Virus record (IMG/VR): IMGVR_UViG_3300026519_000043
Span: 1 to 33,717 of that record
Source of the DNA: a virus
DNA: 33,717 nt
Reading direction: 5' to 3' (one strand)
In this document: piece by piece, positions 34-33,717 of the stretch
Layout: each line of letters begins with the position of its first letter
Numbering within the stretch: position 1 is the stretch's first letter
Made by a program: the position numbers and the translations under genes
Notes under the pieces: model-generated
The model's database searches: none
The model's input: the letters and a program-made list of their open reading frames with translations, nothing else
Told to the model about the DNA's origin: nothing

Positions 34-88
34 GAACAATTAACGGTAAGAATGTGAACAGCGTTCATGTTTATAGTGTTAATTGTTC
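34..88 (-). terminator. Probable terminator of the late operon
   Basis: Perfect 11-bp inverted repeat GAACAATTAAC (34-44) and GTTAATTGTTC (78-88). Read on the - strand it forms a stem with a 33-base loop, followed by a TAG and five Ts (26-30). It sits on the stop codon of the last - strand gene, so it probably ends the late transcript. The long loop is unusual for an intrinsic terminator and contains one copy of the 22-bp repeat family, so the palindrome may instead, or also, belong to the phage-end DNA. Confidence 0.45.
39..61 (+). repeat. 22-bp repeat family, left-end copy
   Basis: AACGGTAAGAATGTGAACAG on the + strand. A weaker relative, TTAATGTAAGAAT, lies at 8-20. Together they could be end-binding sites. 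Confidence 0.8.
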
Positions 89-381
89 TTAAACTTATCT
101 TTTAAGTATTTGGTAAGTGAGAGAAAATTTTCAAAGTTATACCGTGTTGTTTTAACTCTATAGCTTCTATTGAAGTTAGTATGATACTGTCTGTGGCATG
201 TTTTGCACAGGCATACACCATTCTGTACTACAAATCGTAGTTCAGGGAAATATGAGGCACTATCTATGTGGTGAGCATGCCTGTTCTTTCTACTTGTGCA
301 TACGGCACACACCTTATCTCGTCGGATGACTTGCACTCGCCATCGTCTGTATGCTCTACTTTGCCTCCAGTTCTTGGACAT
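79..381 (-). CDS. HNH endonuclease
   Basis: A 100-residue HNH nuclease. Visible are the first zinc pair C25-x2-C28, the catalytic HHID (37-40), N54, the second zinc cluster C59-x2-CH (62-63) and H67. N-terminal residues 1-22 are very basic, fitting DNA contact. The family nicks or cuts DNA; in phages such small HNH proteins often assist packaging or are autonomous homing nucleases. Its ATG overlaps the upstream stop (TAATG), so it is the last gene of the late operon, beyond the lysis genes. That position, far from the terminase, argues somewhat for a selfish or end-processing role. The domain call is sure, the role is not. Confidence 0.88.
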   Translation of the reverse strand: MSKNWRQSRAYRRWRVQVIRRDKVCAVCTSRKNRHAHHIDSASYFPELRFVVQNGVCLCKTCHRQYHTNFNRSYRVKTTRYNFENFLSLTKYLKDKFKNN

Positions 382-671
382 TATTGAGCCCTGAGGCTAT
401 TTGATATAAAGATTTGAGCATTCAACGCCACATTTGCAATGCGGAGCTGTTCTCTCTCTTTAAGGCATGTATCTAACTTGTTCGTGATGCACTTTGCGTC
501 ATTAAGCGGCAAAGTGACGGTTTCGTTTTCGTCTATGCTGTACGTTACGTTACAGTCGCTTAGCTCACTTAGCTCAACATAGATAGGGTTCAACTGTGGG
601 GACGCACCTGAAGGTCTTGTACATGCATTAAAAAGTGTAGCTATGCACGCCAAAGCTAGTATCTGCTTCAT
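381..671 (-). CDS. Rz1-like outer-membrane spanin lipoprotein
   Basis: 96 residues beginning with a lipoprotein signal: basic MKQ, hydrophobic LALACIATLF, lipobox FNAC with the lipidated cysteine at 17. The start is fixed by AAGGAG nine bases upstream. It begins inside the 3' end of the preceding inner-membrane spanin gene in another frame (44-base overlap), the classical Rz/Rz1 arrangement. Spanin pairs bridge the periplasm and fuse inner and outer membranes in the last step of lysis. It is longer than most Rz1 proteins and not strongly proline-rich, so the call rests on position, overlap and lipobox. Confidence 0.7.
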   Translation of the reverse strand: MKQILALACIATLFNACTRPSGASPQLNPIYVELSELSDCNVTYSIDENETVTLPLNDAKCITNKLDTCLKEREQLRIANVALNAQIFISNSLRAQ

Positions 672-891
672 GGGTTTTCTCCTTATTTATTTGCTCTATC
701 TTGCCTTTTGCTTTTTCAGCGATACTTGTAAGTTGCATCTCTGTTTTTTGCGTCTCTATGATGGTCTCTTTTTCGACGATAGTCTTCTTCGCTGCAGCCC
801 TGTCATGAAAGACATAAGCGACGTAAGAGAGAATAGCCACTACTAATAGCACGATGCCTGCATAAAGATAAGCTTGTACGTTCTTAAACAT
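628..891 (-). CDS. Rz-like inner-membrane spanin
   Basis: 87 residues with one N-terminal membrane anchor (about residues 8-28) followed by a charged helix with coiled-coil character (about 33-75), the usual i-spanin topology (N-in, periplasmic coiled coil). Its start overlaps the holin gene by 8 bases and its 3' end carries the start of the Rz1-like gene. Order holin, Rz, Rz1 supports the call. No sequence motif is diagnostic for Rz, so the name comes from topology and context. Confidence 0.7.
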   Translation of the reverse strand: MFKNVQAYLYAGIVLLVVAILSYVAYVFHDRAAAKKTIVEKETIIETQKTEMQLTSIAEKAKGKIEQINKEKTHEADTSFGVHSYTF

Positions 892-1336
892 TGTCTGAGT
901 CCTTTAGTATTTTGTTGAGCGTGTTTCTGATGAGTTTGAGTATTTTTGACAAGACATCAAACTCTTCTACATGCTTCTTCGTGTTGATGGTATAGATGTT
1001 CCCTAAGATGCTGTAGACTTCTGAGAGTATCAAGGCATCTACGACAACATAAAACAGCCATGTAATATCGACATGCACTGCTTTTGCACCTAACGCCATG
1101 ACTAAAGGAATAGTGATTAACACAACTTTACTTATGATGCCATTCGCTAATCTCCAGCTTCGTGGCTTCATGCCCAAAGATATCACTTTGAACCAACCAG
1201 TAATAATGTCTATGATAAGTAATCCTGAAAAGATAGCTAAAACCTCTGTATCAAGTTTCAAGTACTGCATAAGTGCAATAAAAGGAAGATAAAGAAGATT
1301 CATATACATCATCTTTAGTGTTAAACTCTGTTCCAT
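884..1336 (-). CDS. Phage holin (phage_holin_4 type)
   Basis: 150 residues with several hydrophobic segments (about 10-25, 30-50, 65-85, 90-110) and a short charged C-terminal tail. The pattern GLLIIDIITGWFK near residues 38-50 resembles the D-x3-G signature of the TcdE/phage_holin_4 family. Holins form inner-membrane holes that time lysis and release or activate endolysin. An AGGAGG precedes the ATG. It overlaps the peptidase-like gene upstream by 16 bases and is followed directly by the spanins. Confidence 0.8.
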   Translation of the reverse strand: MEQSLTLKMMYMNLLYLPFIALMQYLKLDTEVLAIFSGLLIIDIITGWFKVISLGMKPRSWRLANGIISKVVLITIPLVMALGAKAVHVDITWLFYVVVDALILSEVYSILGNIYTINTKKHVEEFDVLSKILKLIRNTLNKILKDSDNV

Positions 1337-1806
1337 CTACTACCTCCTAGTATTTTATAAAGTTTTGATGGGCTATATTTGCACCCATCTTTTAACCATC
1401 CATATTTATGTGTATGATTTAACACATTCACCGTAACCTCTGAACAAAATATCTTATTGCTTTGTTGTATACAGAATGGGGTAATGCTAAAAATTGCCCC
1501 CAAATAGTCATACTTGAAACCGACATAATTATTGACCTGTATCATGACGATGTCTTTATCGACACCGCTTAGATGCAACTCTACAAAATCCCACCTAGCA
1601 CATTTTGGGTTTATTTTTCTCTTTTGTGCTTTACCTGTGCGAGGTGATATGCTGAACCACTCATCACCGACCACAAGTTCCACATGAGAGTACTTCCCAA
1701 AAGAGGCACAGGCAATCAGCCAGTCGAGCCAAAGACGTTTGATATACTTTGTGTACGTCTCGTCTTTTGATTTAGGCTGAAAAGCTTTATAGAAAGCTAA
1801 TTTCAT
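1321..1806 (-). CDS. Permuted papain-like (NlpC/P60, YiiX-type) amidase/peptidase
   Basis: 161 residues. The order YSHVELV (H41, E43) then IFCSEVT (C121-S-E) matches circularly permuted NlpC/P60 enzymes, where histidine precedes the catalytic cysteine. These are cysteine hydrolases acting on peptide or lipid amide bonds. No signal peptide is evident. It lies just upstream of the holin, so it might be a lysis enzyme, but such proteins also occur as tail-associated hydrolases, and an M15 peptidase elsewhere in the window is the better endolysin. Its ATG overlaps the stop of the lipoprotein gene (TGATG). Confidence 0.65.
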   Translation of the reverse strand: MKLAFYKAFQPKSKDETYTKYIKRLWLDWLIACASFGKYSHVELVVGDEWFSISPRTGKAQKRKINPKCARWDFVELHLSGVDKDIVMIQVNNYVGFKYDYLGAIFSITPFCIQQSNKIFCSEVTVNVLNHTHKYGWLKDGCKYSPSKLYKILGGSRWNRV

Positions 1807-2285
1807 CAGTCACACTTTCCAACCCATTCAGGGTTGGTCGGCAAGTCAGTACCTCCACTAAAAACTGTGCCAGTGAGAGTGACAGGCTCAATTCTCTCAA
1901 CATGACCCTCTACATAATAGATAGTGCCATTTGTGCCTGGTGTTGTGCTTCTATTGTCTATTACTACTGTACCATTGTCTACAGTTACATCTACTCTCGT
2001 ATCTGTCTTTAAACAGTTATAAGCCATGATGAAGTAGGCGATATCCTCTTCACACTGTAGTACAATTTTACCCATGCTGTTAGCAGGGAAAGTAGGTACT
2101 TCTAGCGTACTGTTACTATCTACGATGCTAGATGTATTGCTGTCTGTACTGGCTGTAGTTGTCATTGTTGTTGTGCTGTTATCAGAGCTGTTACTGTTAT
2201 CTATAGAAGCAAGCAAGTTGTCTCCGCATGCAGTAAATGCCATCAGCGCTGTTGCTATTACGAGTAGTGTTTGTAATCTTTTCAT
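1806..2285 (-). CDS. Ser/Thr-rich lipoprotein
   Basis: 159 residues with a type II signal: MKR, hydrophobic core, lipobox FTAC (cysteine 20). Residues 25-60 are a low-complexity linker of S, T, N and D, then a compact domain with four cysteines. The signal predicts a membrane-anchored protein. A good AAAGGA precedes the ATG. Between fibre and lysis genes, it could be a virion or host-surface factor such as a superinfection-exclusion lipoprotein; nothing proves this. Function unknown. Confidence 0.6.
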   Translation of the reverse strand: MKRLQTLLVIATALMAFTACGDNLLASIDNSNSSDNSTTTMTTTASTDSNTSSIVDSNSTLEVPTFPANSMGKIVLQCEEDIAYFIMAYNCLKTDTRVDVTVDNGTVVIDNRSTTPGTNGTIYYVEGHVERIEPVTLTGTVFSGGTDLPTNPEWVGKCD

Positions 2286-2296
2286 TTTTTTGTCCT

Positions 2297-3830: not shown

Positions 3831-3842
3831 ATTTTTTCCTTT

Positions 3843-4706: not shown

Positions 4707-4707
4707 A

Positions 4708-12043: not shown

Positions 12044-12182
12044 GACTCACTCCTTGTGGCGTATCTTTTTTAGGTGGCTTTTTGCTCCATCCTGTTTTGA
12101 GATACGCTTCTGCAAAAGATGCACGTATCTCCATCTCGTTCCCATTCTTATCGTAAATTGTCACGGTTTTAATGGTTGCCAT
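12036..12182 (-). CDS. Small hypothetical protein in head-tail operon
   Basis: 48 residues (MATIKTVTIYDKNGNEMEIR...). It ends with the start codon of the tail tube gene inside its last codons (8-base overlap), and the tail tube's AAGGAG lies in its 3' end. A compact beta hairpin followed by basic SKKPPKK is visible. No family recognised. One copy of the 22-bp repeat family lies in codons 8-15. Confidence 0.5.
   Translation of the reverse strand: MATIKTVTIYDKNGNEMEIRASFAEAYLKTGWSKKPPKKDTPQGVSHG
12137..12158 (-). repeat. 22-bp repeat family, copy in small head-tail gene
   Basis: TACGATAAGAATGGGAAC on the - strand; three differences from the central copy over 22 bases. Coding for YDKNGN, a common protein motif, so the most doubtful member. 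Confidence 0.4.
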
Positions 12183-14972: not shown

Positions 14973-16046
14973 ATGGCAAAACATAAGTCACTCGTTGTCA
15001 AATCTGCAGGCAAGTCACTACAGACGCAACACAGCCAAGACATGCTGCATGAAAATGAAAAGATGATTGAACCCTATCTCAACTACTATGCACTGCGTGG
15101 TCTCTATGCATACAATGTCTATCATAAGCGTTCACTCAAACTTAAGGCGATGTTGCTTTCTCAAATAGAGACGACAAATCTGGACAAATACCTCCCAGCA
15201 GGAATGACACCTAAGAAGTTCCTCTACAAATTCATCCTCAACGCCGAGACCTTTGGCTCTGCTTTCTTTGAGCGGGCATCCGCAAGTAAAGATGACTTTT
15301 ATCTCTATAATCTCAACACCTTCACGGCACGTGTAGACAAACAACACAACATCTACCAAGTGCAAGGGACAGAGTATCAGCCACTTGATGGGGCACATTT
15401 TATGTACGACTCTATTCTCTCAGACCACTACGGTGAACCTGATTACCTCGAGGTGATTTCGCAAATCATGACCCTGCACAAAGCAGACCAGTACAATGAT
15501 AAGTTTTTTGAGAACGGTGCCAAACCAGAACTGGCTATTGTCTTTGAAGATGCAGACCCATCAGATTCACAGATAGACGCTATTACGGAGTTTATGCGTA
15601 AAGATATGCGTGGTTATAAGAACAGCCATAAAACCCTCATTCTTACCACGGGTGAAGGTAACGGAGACACCAAACCTAAGATACGTATCGATGAACTTGG
15701 CAAAGTAGAAGACATGAGTCATGAAAAGCTCAAGAAAATAGGACGAGATGAAATTATCGCAGCACATGGCGTACCTCCTCGCTTAGTGGGTGTAGTAGAG
15801 GCTTCTAGCCTAGGTGGTGGGGGAGAGCTCACATCTCAACTGCACATGTTTAACCAAATTACAATCAAACCTAAAATGGAACTCTTTGAAGAGTTTTTTG
15901 CACATCAGGGCATAGAGCTCAAGCTCAAAGAGTTTGATGCCACTGCCTTCAAAGATGATGCCGATGTAGTCACCGGACTCGTCCAAGCAGGTATCCTTAC
16001 CGCGCAAGAAGCCAAGACAGTCATGGGCTGGTCACATGGCGATTAG
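14973..16046 (+). CDS. Portal protein (PBSX/P2 gpQ family)
   Basis: 357 residues. The order of the helical N-terminus, the NAETFGSAFFERA and HFMYDS segments (about 90-150), the ADQYNDKFFENGAKP helix and the IIAAHGVPPRLVGV motif (about 265) followed by a Gly-rich loop is that of PBSX-type portals. Forms the dodecameric DNA gate at one capsid vertex and docks the terminase. First gene of a rightward pair; AAGG seven bases before the ATG. Overlaps the terminase gene by 11 bases. It is in the opposite orientation to the capsid genes. Confidence 0.88.
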   Translation: MAKHKSLVVKSAGKSLQTQHSQDMLHENEKMIEPYLNYYALRGLYAYNVYHKRSLKLKAMLLSQIETTNLDKYLPAGMTPKKFLYKFILNAETFGSAFFERASASKDDFYLYNLNTFTARVDKQHNIYQVQGTEYQPLDGAHFMYDSILSDHYGEPDYLEVISQIMTLHKADQYNDKFFENGAKPELAIVFEDADPSDSQIDAITEFMRKDMRGYKNSHKTLILTTGEGNGDTKPKIRIDELGKVEDMSHEKLKKIGRDEIIAAHGVPPRLVGVVEASSLGGGGELTSQLHMFNQITIKPKMELFEEFFAHQGIELKLKEFDATAFKDDADVVTGLVQAGILTAQEAKTVMGWSHGD

Positions 16047-17637
16047 AAAAGAGAAAAAGAAACGCATACTACTTCTTGTTGAAGCAGGTATCCCTGTAGC
16101 AGAAGTAGCTGTAGATGAAGGGGTCAACAAAGGCACCATCCACGCATGGATGCGTCAACAAAAAGCAGAAGGCACTTCACCTGTAGAGACCATAGAGAAC
16201 ATCAAAAAACAACTCTCTATACTCTCTAAACGTAAAGCCACCGACGCAGTATCACGCAAGATAGCCATGCTCTCAAAGTCACTCTCAAGACTCGAACGTA
16301 CCCAAGACAAACAAGCCAAAGCAGTAGTCTTGGCACAACATAAGCCCATCATCTCTGACATAGCCAACCACGAAGAAGCTGGAGAGTTACGCCGTAAAGC
16401 TTTAGCAGGTGAGTTTGGTGAACTCTATGGTTACCAACACGCGTTCATGAGCTGTCAAGACCAGTTTAGACTGGTAGTCAAGTCAAGACAGATAGGGTTT
16501 TCGTATGTAGCAGCACTAGATGCACTCATCGCTGCAGTCGCAGGACGTAATCAGCTCTTTTTATCTGCTTCAGAAGAGCAGTCACTCATCCTCATGCGGT
16601 ATGTAGAACACTGGGCAGGAAAGATGGGTATCGTCTTTAGTACCGACAAAGACAACGAAAAACGCCTAGCCAATGGTGCCATCATCAAAGCCATGGCAAA
16701 CAACTTTAGAACCGTACAAGGCTTCACAGGTGACATCTGGATGGATGAGTTCGCCTGGTACCAAAACCCAAAAAAGATTTGGCACGCCTTTGTACCGTCT
16801 ATTGGTGCAGTCAAAGGTCGCTTTACCATCATGTCTACACCCTTTGAAGAGCATTCACTCTTTCATGATCTTATCATGGATGAGACAAAGTACTTTATGT
16901 TTACGCGTTTTAGAGTAGACATCTACAGAGCCATAGAAGATGGCTTAGTCTTTGACCTAGAGACCATGAGAGCCTTGTTTGATGCAGATACCTGGGCTTC
17001 AGCCTATGAGTGTCAGTTCATAGACGATGAGTCCTCACTCTTTAGTATCGCACTCATCAAGGAGTGTGTAGACAACCGCCTAAGCTACTTTACCCCTAGC
17101 TCTAAACGTACCATATTCTCAGGCTACGACATCGGACGTACTGCTCACCGTTCAGCACTTGCAGCTCTGGTACTACAAAGTACCAACATCTATGACCTAG
17201 CCTTCATGGACATCTTAGCCAAAGCCTCGTTCGATGAGCAACGCCTACACCTCAAACGCTTTATGGACACCTACCCACTCTCACAAATGGCGATAGACAG
17301 AACAGGTATAGGGATGGACATCGCAGAGACTATGGTAAAAACCTACAGGCAACGCGTCAGAGGAGTACACTTCACCGCCAGCCAAAAAGAGTCTATGGCT
17401 CTCAACCTAAAGAAGCTCTTTGAAGACAAGCTCATACGCATACCCAACGACCCACTGCTCATCGCAGATATTCATAGCATCAAACGTAAAGCTGGAGCTA
17501 GAGGGTTCCTCTATGACTCCAAACAAAACGAACACGGACACGCCGACAGGTTCTGGGCATTAGCCTTAGCAGCTTCACACATAGAAGCCATCGTTAGAAA
17601 ACAAGGGAAAAAAGGGAGGGGATTATGCATACGTTAA
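16036..17637 (+). CDS. Terminase large subunit (P2 gpP-like)
   Basis: 533 residues. Residues 10-42 form an HTH (AGIPVAEVAVDEGVNKGTIHAWM), as in the Terminase_5/gpP N-terminus; a coiled coil follows (50-100). The ATPase has an adenine/Walker A-like loop VVKSRQIGFS (147-156), deviating from GKT/S as usual in this family, and Walker B DIWMDEFA (233-240, D237-E238). The RNase H-fold nuclease shows D365, D421 (AIDRTGIGMD) and HADRF (502-506). No separate small terminase gene is adjacent; the N-terminal HTH may supply DNA recognition, or the small subunit is among the unknown genes. Confidence 0.9.
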   Translation: MAIRKEKKKRILLLVEAGIPVAEVAVDEGVNKGTIHAWMRQQKAEGTSPVETIENIKKQLSILSKRKATDAVSRKIAMLSKSLSRLERTQDKQAKAVVLAQHKPIISDIANHEEAGELRRKALAGEFGELYGYQHAFMSCQDQFRLVVKSRQIGFSYVAALDALIAAVAGRNQLFLSASEEQSLILMRYVEHWAGKMGIVFSTDKDNEKRLANGAIIKAMANNFRTVQGFTGDIWMDEFAWYQNPKKIWHAFVPSIGAVKGRFTIMSTPFEEHSLFHDLIMDETKYFMFTRFRVDIYRAIEDGLVFDLETMRALFDADTWASAYECQFIDDESSLFSIALIKECVDNRLSYFTPSSKRTIFSGYDIGRTAHRSALAALVLQSTNIYDLAFMDILAKASFDEQRLHLKRFMDTYPLSQMAIDRTGIGMDIAETMVKTYRQRVRGVHFTASQKESMALNLKKLFEDKLIRIPNDPLLIADIHSIKRKAGARGFLYDSKQNEHGHADRFWALALAASHIEAIVRKQGKKGRGLCIR

Positions 17638-17719: not shown

Positions 17720-17794
17720 TTAATGTGACAAAGCCAACACGATATACGCGAGGGCAATGACCATATAAGCGATAGCTTGGGTGTCTAAGGTCAT
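17720..17794 (-). CDS. 24-residue membrane micropeptide
   Basis: ATG preceded by GGAG at seven bases; the peptide has a short polar N-terminus and one hydrophobic helix (IAYMVIALAYIVLAL). It lies between the strong leftward terminator and the hairpin, so it needs read-through or its own promoter. An overlapping frame of 33 codons starting at the same region is less convincing. Confidence 0.35.
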   Translation of the reverse strand: MTLDTQAIAYMVIALAYIVLALSH

Positions 17795-17861
17795 AATACT
17801 GCTCCATAGTTTCTATCCCCAAAACCCAACCATCTAGCTTACTGTTAGGTAAAAATAGACC

Positions 17862-17898
17862 AAAAAAAAACCCCGTGACTCCGAAAAGTCACAGGGTT
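17862..17898 (-). terminator. Strong intrinsic terminator
   Basis: On the - strand: about ten base pairs (AACCC-TGTGACT... with AGTCACGGGG, one A-C mismatch), a six-base loop and nine Ts. It ends the leftward transcript of the early/antirepressor operon before it meets the converging portal/terminase operon. Confidence 0.85.
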
Positions 17899-17968
17899 AT
17901 AGAGCATATGACAGTCGACACCCAAGCCGTTGTCTTACAAACTCTCGTTAGGAGTAACCAGCTCCTAC
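17862..17968 (-). ncRNA. Candidate small RNA
   Basis: Between a good -10 (TATACT, 17980-17975) and the terminator at 17862 lies about 107 bases without a reading frame. It contains a hairpin TAGGAG-7-CTCCTA (17949-17967 region), a wider AGAG/CTCT-closed domain and the terminator stem. The hairpin shows both an SD-like GGAG and an anti-SD CTCCT. The 22-bp repeat (17998-18019) ends 17 bases upstream of the -10, where an activator would sit. Not a tRNA: no T-loop consensus. No match to a known RNA family is claimed. Confidence 0.35.
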
Positions 17969-17997
17969 ACCAAAAGTATAACCTACCCAAGCTTAAT

Positions 17998-18019
17998 CGT
18001 TCTCATTCTTACCGTTAAT
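17998..18019 (-). repeat. 22-bp repeat family, central copy
   Basis: Core AACGGTAAGAATGAGAAC on the - strand, in a gene-free stretch near the middle of the element. Identical over 16 bases to the copies at both ends. Directly followed on the + strand by a cluster of GTGAAAC sites, the same arrangement as at the right end. Confidence 0.8.
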
Positions 18020-18050: not shown

Positions 18051-18146
18051 GTGAAACAGAAGTGTGTTTCACGCACAAGCCCTAAAACACGGACTTTAAG
18101 GGGGCATGAAACAGTGAAGCACGTGAAACAGGGTTTTACTGTTTCA
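18051..18146. promoter_or_regulatory. Internal cluster of GTGAAAC/GTTTCAC sites
   Basis: Sites at 18051-18057 (GTGAAAC), 18066-18072 (GTTTCAC), 18107-18112 (TGAAAC), 18123-18129 (GTGAAAC) and 18141-18146 (GTTTCA). The element GTGAAGCACGTGAAACA recurs exactly at 31921-31937 and GTGAAGTCAGTGAAACA recurs in the repressor gene. Probable binding sites for the repressor, transposase or another phage DNA-binding protein. The last site overlaps the stop of the next gene. Confidence 0.6.
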
Positions 18147-21097: not shown

Positions 21098-21428
21098 CGT
21101 ACTGCTCTCCTTCATTGGCCGCTATGAGTAGTGCATCATACAGCGTACCCTCAAAGTCATGAAGTTTGGTGACAAATGTACCGCCCACATCTTCCCACAC
21201 TTCTAGCTTGACTTCCTCTTGAAACATAGGCTCATCTTTAAGAGATGCTACTAGATGAATGGCATCACAAGATTCAAACCATGTATGCACAAATGCACCA
21301 TCTTTAGTCACATACATACCTGGTATGTGTTTGTGTACTTTGTTGTCCCAGTCATCAAACTTGACTGCATCTTCACTTTCTATGGTGAGCGTGACTAAAC
21401 GCCCTAAACCTACTTTACATACTCGCAT
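21090..21428 (-). CDS. Hypothetical head-tail protein
   Basis: 112 residues from the ATG at 21428 (GGAG six bases upstream). Beta-rich, with VKLEVWEDVGGTFVTKLHDFEGTLYDALLIAAN near the C-terminus. Overlaps neighbours by 14 and 8 bases, between the MuF-like and gp10-like genes, so it is probably structural (connector or neck). No family recognised. Confidence 0.55.
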   Translation of the reverse strand: MRVCKVGLGRLVTLTIESEDAVKFDDWDNKVHKHIPGMYVTKDGAFVHTWFESCDAIHLVASLKDEPMFQEEVKLEVWEDVGGTFVTKLHDFEGTLYDALLIAANEGEQYDV

Positions 21429-22650
21429 TATCTGCTCCTTTTTTTGTGTTTGCATCCAGTAACTCGACTGGTCCTACTTTTTGATCGTCAAAATAGTCCT
21501 TACGGTTTTGTTTAAACGCTGTCCACACCTCTGCACCTTTAAAAGAGAAAAAAACTTGTTTGTCTTTGTTAAGTCCTACAGTCCTGTCTGCAAAGCTTCC
21601 ATGTGAAGCCAGTCTATCCATGCCGTTTATCGCTTTCAGTATCTTATTGTCTGTCATATCTGGGTGACCATTCCCACCATGGTTATTTGTTTTTTCTGTC
21701 ACAACCCGTTCATATCCAAACCGGTCAACATGAGAAAAACGCACTTTTTTACCCCTGTATATTTCACCAGGCAACAAAGAACCGTTCGCATTCTTACCAT
21801 TAATATCTGTTTCTTGTCTAAAGAATGCTACCACAATAGTCCTGCACCTGAAATGATAAGGAGGCAATGCCACCTTGTCTGGTAGCACCCTACTAAAAAT
21901 AGGCTGTGACTGCCACTCAGACACGTTCTTTTTCTCAGCGATACTTTGTGCCTTCAGTATGCCGTCTGCTTGTTTTACGACTGTACGGATAGGGATTATA
22001 CGCCCATCCATGCTCTTACATATTTGAGAGGTTTTTCCATCCATAACCGCCACAACTTTGACCTCCTTCACACCAGCCTTTTCAAACTGATACGCACGTG
22101 TCACAGACTGGCTTTGGCGTATGATATGGTCACTCACGCCCTCAAAGTACCTCGCACTCTCATCGACCACACCCTCAAAGCCTTGACGCAAGGTTTCACC
22201 CAGTTTAGCCATCGTTACTTCACCTTTCATGGCGTCAGCTATGATGGACTTGAGCTTGCCACTGCTGTTGGCAGCCGCATCGTCTTTCATCCATGTTAAG
22301 GCTCTATACATGGAGTCCAGCACTTCGGCATCTGTTTTGTCAAAACTAAACGTCGCACCCACACTAGAGGCTACTGCAGCAGCAGCTTTGGTGTGAATCT
22401 CTTCGAGTGCTGCTGTCTCTACACTGTAGCTAAGATGACTCAACTTACTCTCTACTACCGAGAGAAGTACTTCCTTGTTAAGATTCTCTACATTTTGCAT
22501 GATGTACACCAGTAGCTCCGAGACAAAGGCTGCACTCTGTTGTTTGTTTGTCTTTGTCACATCCCTAAGGTACTTCTCTATCAGTACCTCTATCTCGTCA
22601 GTTTGTGCTGTTTTGGCTTTGAGTAAGCTCTTGAGCAATGTATTCTTCAT
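21415..22650 (-). CDS. Phage head morphogenesis protein (Mu F / SPP1 gp7 type)
   Basis: 411 residues. Residues about 100-290 are the MuF domain: a helical portion (QSVTRAYQFEKAGV), VKVVAVMDGKTSQICKSMDGRIIPI (about 196-220), and the signature PPYHFRCRTIVVAFF (about 262-276). The C-terminal 110 residues form an extra domain (GRSFADRT, FFSFKGAEVWTAF, KVGPVELLDA), as in MuF proteins carrying C-terminal cargo, but I cannot name it. A minor capsid protein bound to the portal. Oddly placed 7 kb from the portal and on the opposite strand. One copy of the 22-bp repeat lies within. Confidence 0.8.
   Translation of the reverse strand: MKNTLLKSLLKAKTAQTDEIEVLIEKYLRDVTKTNKQQSAAFVSELLVYIMQNVENLNKEVLLSVVESKLSHLSYSVETAALEEIHTKAAAAVASSVGATFSFDKTDAEVLDSMYRALTWMKDDAAANSSGKLKSIIADAMKGEVTMAKLGETLRQGFEGVVDESARYFEGVSDHIIRQSQSVTRAYQFEKAGVKEVKVVAVMDGKTSQICKSMDGRIIPIRTVVKQADGILKAQSIAEKKNVSEWQSQPIFSRVLPDKVALPPYHFRCRTIVVAFFRQETDINGKNANGSLLPGEIYRGKKVRFSHVDRFGYERVVTEKTNNHGGNGHPDMTDNKILKAINGMDRLASHGSFADRTVGLNKDKQVFFSFKGAEVWTAFKQNRKDYFDDQKVGPVELLDANTKKGADNASM
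21783..21804 (-). repeat. 22-bp repeat family, copy in head morphogenesis gene
   Basis: AATGGTAAGAATGCGAAC on the - strand; two differences from the central copy. It encodes INGKNANG, so protein constraint could explain part but not all of the match. Confidence 0.55.
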
Positions 22651-22813
22651 ACTCGTCTTTCTCCTCTTGAGTAAATAGTGTTAAGTTGGGTCTCTCGGTC
22701 GTCGTAAAAGAAAAATGACAGTGAGGACAATAGCGTAATCGCCACGTCACGGCACCTTTTTTCTTGGTATCAGGTACTTTCGTTTTGTCGTTGGCACATT
22801 TTGGGCAAACCAT
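22598..22813 (-). CDS. Zinc-ribbon protein, candidate late activator (Ogr/NrdR-like finger)
   Basis: 71 residues. CPKC (3-6), then TKVPDTKKKGAVTWRLRYCPHCHFSFTTTER: four cysteines with an R-x-R-x-C-x2-C-x3-F-T-T-x-E pattern shared by the NrdR zinc ribbon and close in plan to the P2 Ogr/Delta activators. The ATG follows the GemA stop directly. Given a P2/PBSX-type head module, an Ogr-like late activator is plausible. It overlaps the next gene by 53 bases. Confidence 0.5.
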   Translation of the reverse strand: MVCPKCANDKTKVPDTKKKGAVTWRLRYCPHCHFSFTTTERPNLTLFTQEEKDEYEEYIAQELTQSQNSTN

Positions 22814-26041: not shown

Positions 26042-26160
26042 GATTTCGCCTTTGCTTTACGTCTATTGGCTCTCACTTTAAGAGAGCGTGCTTTTTTGCC
26101 TAGTGCAAGACCCTTTGTCATCTTCTCTTTTTTAAGTTTTTTGACGGTGTTATACTTCAT
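26038..26160 (-). CDS. Small highly basic protein
   Basis: 40 residues, about 40 percent K/R (MKYNTVKKLKKEKMTKG...). Coupled at both ends by ATGA overlaps. Probably binds nucleic acid. Its tail ANRRKAKAKS resembles the KLAKAKAKA ending of the gene before it, so the two may derive from a small duplication. Confidence 0.5.
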   Translation of the reverse strand: MKYNTVKKLKKEKMTKGLALGKKARSLKVRANRRKAKAKS

Positions 26161-26885
26161 GCCTTCGCCTTTGCTTTTGCTAATTTCTCAGGTCTCTTAC
26201 GTTGAAAAGAGTCCATACTCTCATACACCGCAAGTTTTCCCATCTTGTATGCCATATCGGCAACCTCTTTCATGTCATGGGTGTTGTACTTTTTCACACA
26301 CTTTTTACGGCCACCCACTGCCAAAGCACGTACCGCTTTATCCATATACTGAATACCAGGAAACAAATACTTCATCACATCATCGAGTGACATATCTGGG
26401 TCTAGTTTTACCCCAGCATCTTCAGACCCCACTTCATCTCCATCTTTTCCAACATCATCAGCGTCCTCATCTGTAGCTCCCTTCTTAGAAGTTTGCTCCT
26501 GAGGTTCTGCAGTCTCAGACCCTTTTGTCTGTTCTGCATCAGTTCCGCCTCTCTCTTGAGAGGCTTGAGACTCTTGTGGTGCTTCAACATGCACGCTATC
26601 GTCCGATTTTGATGTAGGTGTATGAGCCACTGCTTTTGTTTCGTTCTCATTTTTAGTGCTTTTTTTCGCTGCTTTTGTTTTAGCATCTACTGGTTTCACC
26701 TCTTTTTTATTTTGTTTACCCTCTGCTATGCCACTATAGGCATACACAGACTCTTTTTCCAAGTACAACGTGGAAGACTCTTTTTTACCTGTTAGCTTGC
26801 CTGCTTTCCACAAGGCTTCTACCTCTGCGACACTCTGTCCCAGTCTTTGTGCAGCACTCATAGCTGTTATCATCTCTTTACTCAT
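26157..26885 (-). CDS. Acidic-linker protein with N-terminal HTH-like domain
   Basis: 242 residues in three parts. Residues 1-55 resemble an excisionase/MerR-type winged helix (MSAAQRLGQSVAEVEALWKAGKL... LEKESVYAY). Residues 58-165 are a low-complexity, E/D/K/S/T/Q-rich linker, probably disordered. Residues 165-242 are a helical domain (LDDVMKYLFPGIQYMDKAVRALAVGGRKK) ending in a basic tail. No family name. Early-operon position suggests a DNA-binding regulator or adaptor. Confidence 0.55.
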   Translation of the reverse strand: MSKEMITAMSAAQRLGQSVAEVEALWKAGKLTGKKESSTLYLEKESVYAYSGIAEGKQNKKEVKPVDAKTKAAKKSTKNENETKAVAHTPTSKSDDSVHVEAPQESQASQERGGTDAEQTKGSETAEPQEQTSKKGATDEDADDVGKDGDEVGSEDAGVKLDPDMSLDDVMKYLFPGIQYMDKAVRALAVGGRKKCVKKYNTHDMKEVADMAYKMGKLAVYESMDSFQRKRPEKLAKAKAKA

Positions 26886-27447: not shown

Positions 27448-28021
27448 CCCTGCACCTCCTATACAAAGGTACACCTTTCACATAGCCTATATGCTCAGCC
27501 ACACCAGCATCTACCAACGCTTTCAATGCTGTAGCAAATTTGTTGCCACTCACCCCACTGCGCGTACTCAACTGTAAGATGCTTATACCTTCAGCTTCTA
27601 TATTGAGTATCTGCTCTATGCGACCTTTGGCATAGTCTTCAGGCTTCACAGGGCGTTGTTCTATCTTCTTACTCACTTTTGGCGTATATACAGGGTCTTT
27701 TATCTGCACCTCCTGCGTGTTTCTGTCAAAAAGTCTCTTTTGTTTGGCTATCCACACAGGACACAACGCTCCCGTGTTTTTGACTAGCCCATAGCTTCTA
27801 TGGACAAAGAGTTTCGGCTTTGTCTTTTTACCAGCAGGTATGCGTACCTTGATGTACCCTGCATGCTCTAGCTGCTTGAAAAACACTTTCATGCTAGCAA
27901 GACTCATCTCATCCACTATCACCATGACATCTTCCACTTTAAAGATGCGATTACGTCGCATATACTCCCAGATGTATTGACGGTCGTTTTTACGTCTTTT
28001 TGTACTTTTAAACGGTGTCAT
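27437..28021 (-). CDS. Double winged-helix-like DNA-binding protein
   Basis: 194 residues from the ATG at 28021 (inside the MuB 3' end; a TTG five codons before is possible). A basic N-terminus, then a first HTH (YIWEYMRRNRIFKVEDVMVIVDEMSLASMKVFFKQLEHAGYIKV, about 15-58) and a C-terminal second one (RIEQILNIEAEGISILQLSTRSGVSGNKFATALKALVDAGVAEHIG). Two winged helices suggest a regulator or a DNA-bridging accessory to MuB. No named family. Confidence 0.55.
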   Translation of the reverse strand: MTPFKSTKRRKNDRQYIWEYMRRNRIFKVEDVMVIVDEMSLASMKVFFKQLEHAGYIKVRIPAGKKTKPKLFVHRSYGLVKNTGALCPVWIAKQKRLFDRNTQEVQIKDPVYTPKVSKKIEQRPVKPEDYAKGRIEQILNIEAEGISILQLSTRSGVSGNKFATALKALVDAGVAEHIGYVKGVPLYRRCRDGE

Positions 28022-28751
28022 TTTTCTTCTTTTCAATACCTGAGAGTCTATAGGTTTTCAAGTCCACCTCATACACTGCGTTTGTCTCGCACCAAAGCTC
28101 CAGCAATTTCAGTATCACCTTCACAGAGCGTATACTCTTAAACTTGTTATTCAAATACGCTTTCAAATCATCTTTAATCACGATCGGCTCAAACTTGTCA
28201 CCATCACCAATACCACACAGACCAATGAACTTATCTATGTCATCTTTGGGTGTGTCAGTAAAGTACGTCTTCTTAACGATACGATCATAAAAATGTTTAT
28301 ATCGTTGCAAGCGTGCATCACACTGACCCATGCCCACAAGCAGTAGCGGTATCTGTGCTTGGTCATGTATATCACGTAAATTCTCCAAGATGCCTATCTT
28401 GTCTGCACTCAATGCTCTGTCTATCTCATCCACAATCAGTGGGCGAGGATCATCGATCAGAGAATCAACGATGCGTCGCACCACCTCGGAAGTACTTCCT
28501 TTTGTGTGCACACCCAAGGCATCTGCAAGAGCTATCATGCTAGACGTCGGTGTCCACGATGCATTCACACGTACCAAAACACCATTAAACTCACGCGTCA
28601 GCTTCTCGAGTGCGGTCGTTTTCCCTACACCAGGGTTACCATAGCCAAGCCCTATACGCTCCAAATTGCCTTCCATATCTACCAGTGTTGACAAAAGCTC
28701 AAACATTGCTGTATAATTCTTTGTTTTCACAAATTCTCGTTTACTCATCAT
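28008..28751 (-). CDS. MuB-like AAA+ ATPase (transposition target selector)
   Basis: 247 residues from the first of two ATGs behind AAGGAAA. Walker A GYGNPGVGKT (37-46 region), Walker B PLIVDEID (104-111), sensor LLLVGMGQ (136-143), arginines near R149-R157. Shorter than Mu B (312 residues), as in the B proteins of other transposable phages (AAA_22 type), and without an obvious N-terminal HTH. MuB coats target DNA, stimulates MuA and gives target immunity. Follows the transposase gene. Confidence 0.88.
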   Translation of the reverse strand: MMSKREFVKTKNYTAMFELLSTLVDMEGNLERIGLGYGNPGVGKTTALEKLTREFNGVLVRVNASWTPTSSMIALADALGVHTKGSTSEVVRRIVDSLIDDPRPLIVDEIDRALSADKIGILENLRDIHDQAQIPLLLVGMGQCDARLQRYKHFYDRIVKKTYFTDTPKDDIDKFIGLCGIGDGDKFEPIVIKDDLKAYLNNKFKSIRSVKVILKLLELWCETNAVYEVDLKTYRLSGIEKKKNDTV

Positions 28752-28773
28752 CTTTCCTTTTTTGTTGGGTATT

Positions 28774-28819
28774 AAGTCTTCCTCATAAAGACTTGAACGA
28801 GAGTTGCTAAGCAACCCTC
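28774..28819 (-). promoter_or_regulatory. Tandem hairpins between transposase and MuB genes
   Basis: Read leftwards: GAGGGTTGC-TTA-GCAACTCTC (28819-28799, one mismatch) and AAGTCTT-7-AAGACTT (28794-28774), 22 bases before the MuB start. No T-run, so not terminators; they may set the MuA:MuB ratio by RNA processing or stability. Confidence 0.45.
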
Positions 28820-28892: not shown

Positions 28893-30908
28893 CTATCCAG
28901 CCTTTCGTTGCTCATACTCTTCTAGTGCTATCTGCCACAGTCCTTCATGTTTGTCTGCAAGTCTCTGTGTGAGTGCATCACCATGATCCAATCCTTTGTT
29001 CTCAAGCATCCACGCAAAGCGTTCACTCACAGATGCAAAGACTGGCATACCATTGAGTACCACTGTCTCTACACGCTCATCTTGAAGTACTTCCTGCTCT
29101 TCTTGTGTATGTACGCTCTCATCTGCCACACTCTCACGTACATTCGTCACTACCTCAGACTTAAATTCAAGTCCTACTTGTACCTCTTCATCCACCGAAG
29201 TGGCTTCTAAAGCACGTTTATACAGTGCAGGTTCTGCATAACGAAGCTCTCTAAGCTCACGTATCTGCTTCTCTATCTTTTTAGAAAATTTCAACCCAGC
29301 CAAATAATCAGCCCGACTCTTACCAATACTCTCAGCATGTTCTGCCTTACACAAAAACTTCATCTCAAGGTCATAAATATACAAATACCCAAGCTCATCA
29401 TCACTCAGCATCCATATACTCTCACCTACTTTGTCATACAGGGCATCATGCCAGTAGCTCAGCCCTTTCCAAGTGACACCTTTCTTGGTTACTTTTTTCT
29501 TTTCGCTAAGCCCCACAAGTACATCAAGTACCCGTGCATCACTGATGGTTCGTGTCGGTATCGCACACTCATTCCATCGCTCTAGTGGTGTCTGCTTGAT
29601 ACCTCTATGCATACGGTTCTCATATTTACGTATCCACTGCTCTATGTACCCTTCAAGCTCTTCACGACTCACAGGCATCTCTATGTCTATGCCTACATTC
29701 TCTTTTTTAATAGCAAAACGTTTAGCAAAGTCATCACCATCTCTATATTTCGCTTTCCATTTACGTATCGCTTCAAGTTTTTTATCATAACCTGCCCTAT
29801 CAGCGATGATGACCCTATCAGCCACCGAGTGACCGATGTATCCTGGCAACTCTTCAAACAAGTCACGCGTCATCGTCCCGAAAAAACGCTCTATGTGTGG
29901 CTTTTGCCACCCAGAGTATGGCATCGTAAAGCGTTGCTCTATCTTCAAGCGTGAGCAGGTATATTCAAAGGTCTTCGAGCGATATTCTCGACCATTATCA
30001 AGCAACACCGCCTCAGGGATACCAAGCTTCTGTATCCCCACTTTAAACACCTTAGCAAGTGCAGTCGCATTGGCACTAGGTGTCACCACGACGACTGGAC
30101 GACGGCTATACACATCAATAGCAGCACTCAGCTGATACCGCACACCATCACTACAGATGACATCCACAGGCGTACCATCCATCTCCCACACTGCATTGTT
30201 ATACGGTGCATTCTCCGCTTTGTTGCCAGGTGCAGGTCGCAGTTTATTGTTTGCTTCACCTGGACTTACCGCTACAGTACTCAGTAGCACATTTTCACTT
30301 CTATACCGTTCTATCATACGCATCACAGTAGAGTAAGAGGGTGCCTCTTTGCCAAACTCCTCTTGCAAGTACTGGTGTATCTTGATCTTCGTACGACTAG
30401 GGTTGACCAAAAACAGTTCAGTCACATACTGATAGTGTGCCTCCGTGTAGCTTCTATTGTTTGCATGCTTGCCACGCTTATCAAGTAGCCACTCCAAAGG
30501 CACATCACCACGCTCTTCACACCCACGCACAATCTCCAGCCATCGAAACAACTTCGACTTCGTAGGCTTCACATCTCTATACTTGTACGCTATACGATCC
30601 AAAAACTTCTGCCAGCTCTCACCACTAGGACGGTTCCTATACAGCCGTACCACCGCCAACCTTTTACTAGCCAGTTCCTGCTGCGCATCACTAGCCCTAC
30701 GCCACGCAGCACTTAAGTCTGTGTCACTCGTGTCCACCACCTCGGCAAATATCTCCTCATACACATAATGACCCTTCACCACTTCAAACTTAAAGAAACG
30801 CTCATTAAGCTTGATGCTTTGTTGGTTTTGTTCTTTGGCTTTTTGTGTCTTATCTTGTATCGTTCGCGGTGATATGTTGAGTATCGTGCCTAACTCATTG
30901 CTATTCAT
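28893..30908 (-). CDS. MuA-like DDE transposase
   Basis: 671 residues from the ATG at 30908 (GGGAGG seven bases away). Residues 1-25 resemble an HTH (LGTILNISPRTIQDKTQKA); DNA-binding domains follow to about 215. The catalytic core has D244 (WEMDGTP), D304 (VLLDNGRE) and E340 (KPHIERFF), a D-x59-D-x35-E triad, then beta-barrel and C-terminal domains. It pairs phage ends and joins them to target DNA in integration and replication. Only residue spacing was checked. A GTTTCAC site overlaps its ribosome binding site, hinting at control. Confidence 0.92.
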   Translation of the reverse strand: MNSNELGTILNISPRTIQDKTQKAKEQNQQSIKLNERFFKFEVVKGHYVYEEIFAEVVDTSDTDLSAAWRRASDAQQELASKRLAVVRLYRNRPSGESWQKFLDRIAYKYRDVKPTKSKLFRWLEIVRGCEERGDVPLEWLLDKRGKHANNRSYTEAHYQYVTELFLVNPSRTKIKIHQYLQEEFGKEAPSYSTVMRMIERYRSENVLLSTVAVSPGEANNKLRPAPGNKAENAPYNNAVWEMDGTPVDVICSDGVRYQLSAAIDVYSRRPVVVVTPSANATALAKVFKVGIQKLGIPEAVLLDNGREYRSKTFEYTCSRLKIEQRFTMPYSGWQKPHIERFFGTMTRDLFEELPGYIGHSVADRVIIADRAGYDKKLEAIRKWKAKYRDGDDFAKRFAIKKENVGIDIEMPVSREELEGYIEQWIRKYENRMHRGIKQTPLERWNECAIPTRTISDARVLDVLVGLSEKKKVTKKGVTWKGLSYWHDALYDKVGESIWMLSDDELGYLYIYDLEMKFLCKAEHAESIGKSRADYLAGLKFSKKIEKQIRELRELRYAEPALYKRALEATSVDEEVQVGLEFKSEVVTNVRESVADESVHTQEEQEVLQDERVETVVLNGMPVFASVSERFAWMLENKGLDHGDALTQRLADKHEGLWQIALEEYEQRKAG

Positions 30909-31120
30909 CGTTTCACCTCCCATGGTAAAGCACCCACATAGATGCCATCTTTCTTTAGCTGTGCATACACCTTACGCACCGCACCCACACGACTTCTGTT
31001 TGTACCCTTGACCTTTTCATCCAACACCTCACTAAGCCTTGGCTGACTCAGCTTATGAGCCTTGGCATACTTACACACACCATAGCCCTTAGCATCAAAC
31101 CGCTCTCTCAAACTCTTCAC
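30905..31120 (-). CDS. Ner-like HTH regulator
   Basis: 71 residues from the second GTG (31120), six bases behind AGGAGG. RFDAKGYGVCKYAKAHKLSQPRLSEVLDEKVKG is a short HTH, then a basic helix and ALPWEVKR. It lies directly in front of the transposase gene with an ATGA overlap, the place of ner in Mu, which turns down the early promoter. Not visibly homologous to Ner; the call is by position and fold. Confidence 0.6.
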   Translation of the reverse strand: MKSLRERFDAKGYGVCKYAKAHKLSQPRLSEVLDEKVKGTNRSRVGAVRKVYAQLKKDGIYVGALPWEVKR

Positions 31121-31141
31121 CACTTACCTCCTATAAAATTA

Positions 31142-31838: not shown

Positions 31839-31856
31839 CTTCCTTTTTATAAAGCA

Positions 31857-31962
31857 GTGAAACGTTTCACCCCTTTTTTATGTTTCACTACAAAGCCATA
31901 GTTTACGGCATTTGTAGCGTGTGAAGCACGTGAAACAAGTGAAACACATATTTTTGTTTCAC
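31857..31962. promoter_or_regulatory. Operator-like cluster of GTTTCAC sites
   Basis: Perfect palindrome GTGAAACGTTTCAC (31857-31870), then GTTTCAC 31882-31888, GTGAAAC 31930-31936 and 31939-31945, GTTTCAC 31956-31962. Placed before the HTH gene. In Mu, transposase end sites contain the similar GTTTCA core and the repressor also binds an internal enhancer; this cluster may be that kind of enhancer/operator. Confidence 0.65.
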
Positions 31963-31972
31963 GTACAAATCC

Positions 31973-32044
31973 ACAGAAGAGCCCTCGCAACATAAATTCA
32001 TGGGAGGAAGAGATCTAGGCTTTGGACACCGAGGGCTCATCTGT
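31973..32044. other. Long stem-loop of unknown role
   Basis: Arms ACAGAAGAGCCCTCG (31973-31987) and CGAGGGCTCATCTGT (32030-32044) pair in 14 of 15 positions (one A-A mismatch) around a 42-base loop. The loop has GGGAGGAAGAG, an SD-like sequence on the + strand, but no convincing gene follows. May be an RNA element of the + strand leader or of the - strand early transcript. Confidence 0.5.
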
Positions 32045-32162
32045 AGATTCAAACCATCTTGCTGCTCTCGACAACATGGTTTACTTATTAGTCTTACGCA
32101 TAGTAGTTACCTACCATGTCATCTGCCGACGCAACAGATGAGAAATGTAAAAAAACACAGTG

Positions 32163-32237
32163 CATTCACACTGATAGCCCCTTTATGTTATGATGTTATG
32201 TATCTCAAATACAACAAAAACAAAAGGAGCCATCACT
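32163..32237 (+). promoter_or_regulatory. Promoter and leader, copy 2
   Basis: TTCACACTGATAGCCCCTTT then TATGAT (32189-32194) and leader ACAAAAGGAGCCATCACT. Aligns base by base with the region at 31142, so both + strand genes share one promoter design. Confidence 0.65.
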
Positions 32238-32456
32238 ATGGACGAACTCAGCATCAGAAAACAACAACTCAGAGCTATGCACTCTGCCATCACCGAAGCA
32301 ATGCAAAGCAACACGCCAACCAAAGAAACTATCTACGCGTTTTACGAGAAGAAACTATCTCAAGCTGTGGACTTTGGTCCTCTCCCTTCTGACTACTGGG
32401 AGAGGTGGCACGACTCTCTGTACGATGACCTGGCCAAGGCTGATACAACTCCTTAA
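32238..32456 (+). CDS. Small lysogeny-expressed hypothetical protein
   Basis: 72 residues from the ATG at 32238, set by AGGAG eight bases upstream. MDELSIRKQQLRAMHSAITEAMQSN then an aromatic, acidic end (FGPLPSDYWERWHDSLYDDL). No family recognised. It has the same promoter and leader as the KTSC gene and the same direction as the repressor, so it is a moron-type gene. Its 3' 128 bases overlap a - strand gene. Confidence 0.6.
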   Translation: MDELSIRKQQLRAMHSAITEAMQSNTPTKETIYAFYEKKLSQAVDFGPLPSDYWERWHDSLYDDLAKADTTP

Positions 32457-32592
32457 TCATCATATTGAGAGGATCAATCACTAAAGTCAAAGCACCCATG
32501 GCACCACGCACACGAGACTCTTTGGCTTTAAGCTCTCTCTTGAGTTGCTTCACCTCTTTTTTAAGTCTCCTAATCTCTAACTTCTTTTTCAA
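32329..32592 (-). CDS. Coiled-coil protein, first gene of the early transcript
   Basis: 87 residues from a TTG at 32592 with AAGGA six bases upstream. Residues 2-26 are a basic/acidic coiled coil (KKLEIRRLKKEVKQLKREL). The rest is polar and probably partly disordered. It is supported by the consensus - strand promoter 67 bases upstream of the start. Its 3' part overlaps the opposing + gene, where codon constraint makes the C-terminus uncertain. Confidence 0.5.
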   Translation of the reverse strand: MKKKLEIRRLKKEVKQLKRELKAKESRVRGAMGALTLVIDPLNMMIKELYQPWPGHRTESRATSPSSQKGEDQSPQLEIVSSRKTRR

Positions 32593-32665
32593 AATATTCC
32601 TTTATTCCCACTCTAAGTGGATTTTTCTCTCACTTTCTGCTACAATCGTATGAAGTGATACGAGA

Positions 32666-32694
32666 ATTATAGGACATTTGTCTTTAAATGTCAA
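32666..32694 (-). promoter_or_regulatory. Early lytic promoter (consensus sigma70)
   Basis: On the - strand TTGACA (32694-32689), 17-base spacer, TATAAT (32671-32666): a full consensus match. Faces left into the early region and lies between the repressor gene and the early genes, the place of Mu Pe. Overlapped by the operator repeats. Confidence 0.8.
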
Positions 32695-32710
32695 GACAAA
32701 AATGACATTT
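32673..32710. promoter_or_regulatory. Nested operators of the repressor
   Basis: Perfect inverted repeat TTTGTCTT (32677-32684) / AAGACAAA (32693-32700), interleaved with GACATTT (32673-32679), AAATGTC (32686-32692) and GACATTT (32704-32710). The first and last GACATTT are 31 bases apart, about three helical turns. They cover the -35 and spacer of the early promoter. Likely bound by the S24 repressor, which would also control its own gene 23 bases away. Confidence 0.65.
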
Positions 32711-32732
32711 TGCAAAAAAATAGGATTATTAC

Positions 32733-33356
32733 ATGGATGTTAGAGAGTATTTAGATAGGAAAAAGTATGAATTTGGATTAAAAAGTGATGAGGAACTAGC
32801 CGTATACGTGGGTGTAAGCGTTGATGCAATGAACAAATGGATACAAAGAAGGACATTGCCAAAAAAATGGGAATTTATTATTGGAGAACTTACCAAAAGT
32901 CTTAATAAGTCAGGACAAAGTGAAGTCAGTGAAACAAAAAAAGACCAAAATGTTTCACTTTCTGTTTCACTACTCCAGGCAGGTGCTGGAGAAGGTGTCT
33001 ATAACTTTGAAACCCAAGAAACCCTCCTCTCTCTCAACCCCACCATCTTCTCACGCCTCACAAACCAGCAACTCACCGCCGTAGAGGTCATGGGAGACTC
33101 CATGGAGCCAGAACTCCATTCAGGAGACTACATCATCATCACACCACCATCCACAGAACGTGCCACCGAAGACGGCATCTACGCCATACGCATAGACGGC
33201 ATGGTCAAAGTCAAAGCCCTACAGTTCCTACTAGACGGACGCATAAAGATCATCTCCTACAACCGCAACTATCAAGAAGAGATCTACGACAGCACCCAAA
33301 CCCAAATAGACTTTTCTATTATAGGCAAAATGCGTATGCACCTCACCTTCAAGTAA
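32733..33356 (+). CDS. LexA/CI-type phage repressor (S24 peptidase)
   Basis: 207 residues. Residues 15-50 are an HTH (LKSDEELAVYVGVSVDAMNKWIQRRTLP). The S24 part has the likely cleavage site in LLQAGAGEG (83-87), catalytic S123 in MGDSMEPELHSGDYIII, and K161 in GMVKVKAL. It therefore should self-cleave with RecA, giving SOS-induced lysis. Mu itself has an unrelated repressor; S24 types occur in other transposable phages. AGGA lies eight bases before the ATG. The linker region of the gene (32929-32970) carries three GTTTCAC/GTGAAAC sites. Confidence 0.9.
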   Translation: MDVREYLDRKKYEFGLKSDEELAVYVGVSVDAMNKWIQRRTLPKKWEFIIGELTKSLNKSGQSEVSETKKDQNVSLSVSLLQAGAGEGVYNFETQETLLSLNPTIFSRLTNQQLTAVEVMGDSMEPELHSGDYIIITPPSTERATEDGIYAIRIDGMVKVKALQFLLDGRIKIISYNRNYQEEIYDSTQTQIDFSIIGKMRMHLTFK

Positions 33357-33717
33357 AACTGTTCTCATTCTTACCGTTTAAGTGACTTGCGTCTGCTATT
33401 GCGTCTGCTTCACGGCGTTTCACTCACTTTTGAGCCACAAAGCCCCACCACACCGAACAAAACACCACATCTAAGCCATTTTCAGTGAAACAGAGCAGTG
33501 TTTCATACCACCACCCAACATCAAAGCCCCACACATCCACACATAACCCCAAAAATCAACTAGTTCAAATAAGTTGCGTGAAACATGAACTAGCTTCACA
33601 GCTAAATAAAACCAAATAACCCCCACAAACAACGCTCTGCACGCAATTAAAGCGAAACACAACTCATTCCTTTTTTAACTGAACCCCCACACTTTCATTG
33701 GCTTGAAACATTGTTAA
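33357..33717. other. Gene-free element end with repeated binding sites
   Basis: No credible gene. Contains the right copy of the 22-bp repeat (33359-33381) and GTTTCAC-type sites at 33417-33423, 33485-33491, 33499-33505, 33578-33584 and 33704-33709. Location beyond the repressor corresponds to attL of Mu, where MuA end sites with a GTTTCA core occur. I cannot fix the exact terminus. Confidence 0.55.
33359..33381 (-). repeat. 22-bp repeat family, right-end copy
   Basis: AACGGTAAGAATGAGAACAG on the - strand, in inverted orientation to the left-end copy. Confidence 0.8.

Follow-up and report, generated by a model that had tools for sequence, protein, structure and literature searches.

The end sites of phage Mu (L1–L3 and R1–R3), which are recognised by its transposase MuA, are about 22 bp long, stand several to an end, are inverted between the two ends, include an adjacent R1–R2 pair and lie beside a 5'-TG terminus. 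Chromatin immunoprecipitation detects MuA only at the Mu ends (PMC2837660). Self-insertion avoidance by a replicating transposable phage is an open question, for which the end sites of Mu fall short in reach (PMC7350765, PMC2837660). In the cis-immunity of Mu, MuB is stripped near MuA-bound ends, most strongly within ∼5 kb (PMC7350765); cis-immunity from the ends alone cannot cover the 37 kb of Mu (PMC7350765), and what protects its interior is a different mechanism, as yet unresolved (PMC7350765, PMC2837660). The element described here is carried by one whole IMG/VR virus record, IMGVR_UViG_3300026519_000043, whose 33,717 bases are referred to as the window. It is a Mu-like phage, nearly complete, from hosts of the Sulfurovum/Sulfurimonas type and, like Mu, has a MuA/TnsB-type transposase (A) with a B ATPase. 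As read from the sequence, its end sites are arranged as those of a Mu-type transposase are. In contrast with Mu, the sites have another sequence, and the same type of site is also dispersed through the phage interior. Taken as a whole, the motif is probably a recognition site for transposase A whose interior copies are kept by selection, most likely for immunity to self-integration.

The motif has the consensus TTNACRGTAARAAYGNGAAC. The window contains five matches to AACGGTAAGAATGNGAAC, none with more than two mismatches, at 42–59 (+; no mismatch), 12138–12155 (−; two), 17999–18016 (−; none), 21784–21801 (−; one) and 33361–33378 (−; none), the variable base being T, G, A, C and A in coordinate order. 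The chance expectation is 0.05, and none of 100 shuffles reached five. The first-pass annotation had reported five copies at both ends, at the centre and inside two genes; all were recovered where it had placed them, with 0–2 mismatches to AACGGTAAGAATGNGAAC, the shuffle count it had proposed speaks for them, and two do lie within genes, at 21784 in a Mu gpF-like head gene and at 12138 in a gene of 48 codons. In a de novo search for repeated 20-mers, made with no prior motif, this family comes out top for the window, and a sixth copy, a weaker one, appears at 26643–26662 (−). Two further sites come from a profile search, at 18–37 (+) and 63–82 (−). An exact-pattern scan of IMG/VR returned 13 single matches only, which is roughly chance level by estimate. 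Across three host genomes (∼6 Mb in total), 16 of the 17 matches to a wider consensus lie in prophages, so the comparison with the host chromosome, which had been named as a possible refutation, does not refute the motif: it is nearly absent outside prophages. A host chromosomal motif of the Chi, KOPS or parS type is rejected on the same counts, as the motif is not frequent in the host chromosome.

The relatives used for comparison (G001, G041 and so on) come from Sulfurovum and Sulfurimonas genome bins and from IMG/VR records; W denotes the window turned to Mu orientation. Those on genome contigs were found with a transposase alignment, a single-protein transposase query of the same contigs having found none. 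The data are metagenome-assembled genomes and metagenome sequence, and the relatives are few and some of them fragmentary. Alignment with the right ends of G001, G005, G041, G042 and G043 places the right terminus, a Mu-type TG..CA end reading 5'-TGTAAG, at 12–17 (+); from window position 12 inwards, the right end in the alignment of relatives reads 5'-TGTAAGAATCCACTAAAAAC. The left terminus, 5'-TGTGGG, is at 33686–33691 (−), with TGTGGGGGTTCAG common to G001 and G043 and TGTGGGGGATCAG in G041, and the aligned left end reads 5'-TGTGGGGGTTCAGTTAAAAA from 33691 inwards. Positions 1–11 and 33692–33717 are flanking DNA beyond the right and left termini, respectively. The TG..CA termini (TGTGGG and TGTAAG/TGTACG) adjoin the outermost sites with an offset of 6 nt on both sides.

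At the right end, the terminal transposase-type site R1 (AATCCACTAAAAACTAGAAC, 18–37, +) begins 6 nt from the terminus and scores 12.6 on the profile. It is in the same register as R1 of G042 (16.0) and G043 (16.7), neighbouring registers being strongly negative, and R1 ranges from 3.3 to 16.7 bits across six phages. R2 (TTAACGGTAAGAATGTGAAC, 40–59, +), the first of the five copies originally reported, is 22 bp from R1; this spacing is also 22 bp in G041, G042 and G043, 21 in G001, and 22 in G045 with another motif. R3 (TTAACACTATAAACATGAAC, 63–82, −; 22.2 bits on the profile) is the inverted arm of inverted repeat I1, and R3-type arms are also present in G041, G042, G043 and G005. At the left end, the terminal site L1 (GGTTCAGTTAAAAAAGGAAT, 33666–33685, −) is again 6 nt from the terminus. 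L1 is in the R1 register in five of the six left ends tested (2.2 to 5.6 bits; −0.3 in G038), with neighbouring registers far below zero, and the fraction of random 20-mers reaching 2 bits on the profile is 0.00075. A probable L2, inverted and half-matching (AAGTTGCGTGAAACATGAAC on the + strand, 33571–33590), falls in a conserved GTTCATGTTTCA element found in the left ends of W, G001, G041, G043 and G038; comparable inverted L2-type sites lie at +80 in G045 and +81 in G046. L3 (TAAACGGTAAGAATGAGAAC, 33361–33380, −) is 311 bp from the left terminus. Its distance is 299–313 bp in W, G041, G043 and G044, and ∼321–328 bp in G045 and G046, which have the other motif; in W, G041 and G043 it stands directly downstream of the repressor gene. 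In the window and its relatives the end sites are thus several per end and inverted between the ends, L1 and L3 facing R1, R2 and R3. The copies near the ends (R2, R3 and L3, beside the terminal R1 and L1) would be ordinary end sites. The first-pass statement that no known Mu motif matches holds for the sequence of Escherichia coli Mu and fails for the layout, which is Mu-like.

The flanks of W and G043 show no clear 5-bp repeat as a target duplication. Those of G041 (L183/L184) carry a 19-bp direct repeat, CATGATCTTCGAAATCTAA, directly outside both termini, which is long for a Mu-type target duplication or else an insertion-site repeat. The right flanks of G042 (C20) and G043 (C7), binned as Sulfurimonas and Sulfurovum (L185–L188), are nearly identical beyond the right terminus, which suggests either that insertion favours this site or that a contig was misbinned.

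The site sequence follows the transposase lineage, with a different motif at the ends and in the interior of G045 and G046. Transposase A of G045 is 40% identical to A of W, and its motif, AAAACAAGGCAAGAATGTCA, is unlike that of W. It stands at the phage's own R1 and R2 (22 bp apart), at an inverted L2 at +80 and at L3 at +328, with further copies at +1.1, 10.8, 21.2 and 33.7 kb. G046 is a fragment whose motif is of the G045 type; besides L1, L2 and L3 it shows an interior copy, at 9.5 kb. The structural genes of G045 have no match among those of W, so its interior sites were not inherited with the same genes. Because the motif belongs to the same family as L1 and R1, with the R1–R2 spacing of 22 bp, the inverted R3 and L3, it is most likely a MuA/TnsB-type transposase recognition site. 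A protein that reads the terminal repeats and changes with them would most simply be the transposase, and binding of the sites by transposase A is accordingly graded as very probable here. The earlier suggestion of a transposase end or synapsis site is therefore strongly supported, by the register of L1 and R1, the 22-bp R1–R2 spacing and the covariation with the ends in distant relatives. Membership in the terminal inverted repeats would not be expected of a dedicated packaging or segregation site.

The likely reader of the sites, transposase A (28893–30923, −), has the rve core and Mu-transpos_C domains and matches TnsB structures by profile. Its AlphaFold model is weak (mean pLDDT 59.8); the structures closest to it in fold, TnsB and the Mu transpososome, agree with the sequence evidence and add little to it. 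The AAA+ protein B (28008–28814, −), with matches to TniB/AAA_22 and to phrog_296 (DNA transposition protein), is a MuB/TnsC-type target-capture ATPase. The element thus holds both a MuA/TnsB-family DDE transposase and its AAA+ partner (rve, Mu-transpos_C, TniB).

Multiple putative transposase sites beside TGT termini are also a feature of Pseudomonas Mu-like phages, each end of which has three 22-bp sites, and of KS10, with four 15-nt repeats (PMC4378225, PMC2628397). Interior copies, in contrast, are not described for these phages in the portions of the open-licence literature at hand. The interior sites of the window's phage depart from the ends-only arrangement of Mu and not from the end-site type. 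A profile derived from end sites only and scored with leave-one-out picks out 43 sites reaching 15 bits or more in nine clade phages (240 kb), and all profile matches other than R1 and R2 share one orientation. In Mu and 26 further Mu-like or terminase-related phages (965 kb) the same profile gives 3 matches; the reversed profile gives 1, and shuffles give 0–1. An earlier end-anchored test by identity (16 of 20) lacked discrimination, being clear for the window only and missing the dispersed sites of the relatives, and was replaced by the profile. The de novo repeat search shows no comparable end-anchored families in other Mu-like phages among the matches listed. G010, G012, G014, G022 and G064 have dispersed repeats of a TTTAAA-N5-TTTAAA type, for example TTTTAAACGCCTTTTAAAAG, with no excess over shuffles in the end-anchored test.

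Three interior sites and one weaker candidate, all on the minus strand, are present in the window. The first, TTTACGATAAGAATGGGAAC (12138–12157), lies within a small gene of 48 codons (12182–12036; protein MATIKTVTIYDKNGNEM...) just upstream of a tail-protein gene. The central site, TTAACGGTAAGAATGAGAAC (17999–18018), is noncoding, and TTAATGGTAAGAATGCGAAC (21784–21803) is within the Mu gpF-like (MuF) gene at 21415–22650. The weaker candidate, AAAGCACTAAAAATGAGAAC (26643–26662; 19.1 bits, 17.3 on leave-one-out), is in the gene at 26157–26885. As a percentage of the genome, the interior sites stand at 35, 47 and 64 in W (the weaker one at 21), 36, 49 and 70 in G041, 33 and 72 in G043, and 32 and 62 in G045. 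Across relatives the zones are ∼0.32–0.36, 0.46–0.49 (in some phages) and 0.62–0.72 of the genome, so that the proposed search of relatives did find the motif at the same places. The TGT that lies 6 nt outside L1 and R1 precedes no interior copy in W, and these copies therefore look like putative uncut binding sites. They would be end-type sites that lack the TGT cleavage position of the termini, selected near the one-third, halfway and two-thirds marks of the genome. End-type sites in Mu-like phages, then, need not mark ends. In both motif lineages a further copy stands ∼1.05–1.12 kb from the left terminus, with the repressor on one side and the early genes on the other (at 1049 in G001, 1189 in G041, 4166 in G043 and 1217 in G045, in Mu-orientation coordinates), a position comparable to that of the transpositional enhancer of Mu; none was found in the window.

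Could the two coding copies be coincidences of a conserved peptide with a KN-x-N turn, leaving only the end and central copies real? Both peptides are conserved in relatives, as this explanation needs, yet it is most improbable in the light of codon usage. In ten phages the MuF region is spelled xTT-GAC-GGY-AAR-AAY-GNG-AAC with few exceptions. Among the 122 residue-conserved degenerate columns of MuF, the third base is the same throughout the ten phages in only 2, and one of these is the AAC of the motif. Columns 283 (ATT/GTT) and 288 (GTG/GCG) keep the third base despite a change of residue, whereas the degenerate positions of the motif (AAR, AAY) vary in theirs, in a gene whose pairwise codon identity at shared residues is mostly 0.25–0.6. 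The gene at 12138 reads xTT TAC nnn AAR AAY GGG AAC in all seven clade phages compared, and its glycine is always GGG, though among all glycine codons of these phages the share ending in G is only 0.14–0.25. Relatives outside the motif group use different codons at these places; the G001 homologue of the 12138 gene keeps YAKNG, in other codons and without the full motif. Third bases are fixed at the fixed positions of the motif and free at its degenerate ones, and therefore the DNA is selected and not the peptide alone. The probabilities of the codon test treat phages as independent and are indicative only. On this test coincidental coding matches are rejected as strongly disfavoured, and the two genes present a clear case of protein code in which a putative DNA-binding site is embedded and maintained through the choice of codons.

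The central copy has the same place, downstream of the 18144–18344 gene, in G004 and G041, and is weaker in G005; in G001 it is downstream of a gp10-like gene. One copy of the motif is thus central, like the strong gyrase site (SGS) of Mu. The SGS is a single gyrase site, whereas the motif is multi-copy and both terminal and interior as well as central, an arrangement unlike that of a single central gyrase site. The promoter of a short terminated RNA overlaps the central copy with its −35 region in W and G004, at identical spacing, as might be expected if the motif were an operator or activator site of a phage regulator (a late activator, or a Ner-like or zinc-ribbon protein). G041 keeps the promoter but has the site farther upstream, the remaining copies are inside genes or at gene ends with no such promoter seen at them, and the motif forms part of L1 and R1, all of which makes a regulator site very unlikely. 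The late-promoter or activator reading is rejected on the changed site-to-promoter distance in G041. The activator guess of the first-pass annotation was thus not borne out, its transposase end or synapsis site being the part of that interpretation that stands.

The short RNA belongs to a region at 17720–17980 (−), with a promoter TATACT at 17980–17975 and a terminator at ∼17862–17898, followed by a gene for a 24-aa hydrophobic peptide at 17794–17720. The peptides of 24 codons in W and G004 are MTLDTQAIAYMVIALAYIVLALSH and MSPDINTIAYLVIALAYIALALSH. In both phages the short RNA is complementary to the start region of the peptide gene, and the two co-vary; predicted pairing is stronger with the phage's own partner (−70.6 and −59.5 kcal/mol) than with that of the other phage (about −51.6). 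Rfam has no match near any gathering score for the short RNA region. The short RNA and peptide gene look like a candidate type I toxin-antitoxin pair, which would be separate from the site, because the site-to-promoter distance changes in G041.

As to what the interior sites do, the proposal put forward here, tentatively, is immunity to self-integration. The sites would hold transposase A on the phage's own DNA, and A would strip the target-capture protein B from it, by the known reaction in which MuA stimulates the removal of MuB from DNA close by. Sites in W, G041, G043 and G045 are separated by 10.5–12.5 kb at the widest, and therefore every base in these phages is within ∼6 kb of a site (6.2 kb at most). 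Since no point would be farther than this from a site, B could be removed from the entire phage DNA, protecting the replicating phage from integration into itself as a cis-immunity spread over the genome. Whereas the Mu interior is guarded by another mechanism, interior sites could here extend cis-immunity. The lineage may, on a guarded estimate, guard its whole genome with transposase sites about every 10 kb, some of them in protein genes under codon-level selection.

Several points weigh against immunity. The gap between sites in G001 is 16.7 kb, the interior sites are of uniform polarity, which immunity would not require, and protection of the Mu interior is independent of interior MuA sites (PMC2837660). 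Even spacing by itself is no more than suggestive: P is 0.01–0.09 per genome when W is given three sites, but 0.23 in W when the weak fourth site is included, and W, G041 and G043 are not independent in this test. The main rival to the immunity role is DNA looping or end synapsis: the sites would bind transposase, and the interior ones would organise the phage DNA, through loops or a closed domain joining the ends or in an enhancer-like role. The fixed polarity would suit such a role, as would the near-central site of several phages and the fixed left-end distances of L3 (∼311 bp) and of the 1.05–1.12 kb copy (G001, G041, G043 and G045), which recall the enhancer/operator region of Mu; Mu itself forms a domain bounded by its ends (PMC3820752). 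The sites at one third and two thirds are nevertheless more constant than the central site, which is absent in G043, and DNA organisation without immunity is judged unlikely. If the interior sites do confer immunity, the question of self-insertion avoidance becomes testable through synonymous changes in two genes.

The remaining gene content fits a Mu-like layout. The minus-strand order is repressor, small Ner-like gene, transposase A, ATPase B, early genes, head and tail genes, and a last HNH gene; the portal and large terminase genes (14973–17637) are transcribed in the opposite direction. Domain matches identify the S24-type repressor at 32733–33356 (+). The GTGAAAC/GTTTCAC repeats noted earlier near the centre and right end of the window are present, and recur at 31857–31956 and 32929–32964. 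These two clusters and those at 33417–33585 and 18051–18140, which are grouped about the repressor, the region of the early promoter and the intergenic region at the centre, are probably operators or half-sites. At 22598–22813 (−), a 71-aa protein with an NrdR-like zinc ribbon adjoins the MuF gene and is conserved there in relatives.

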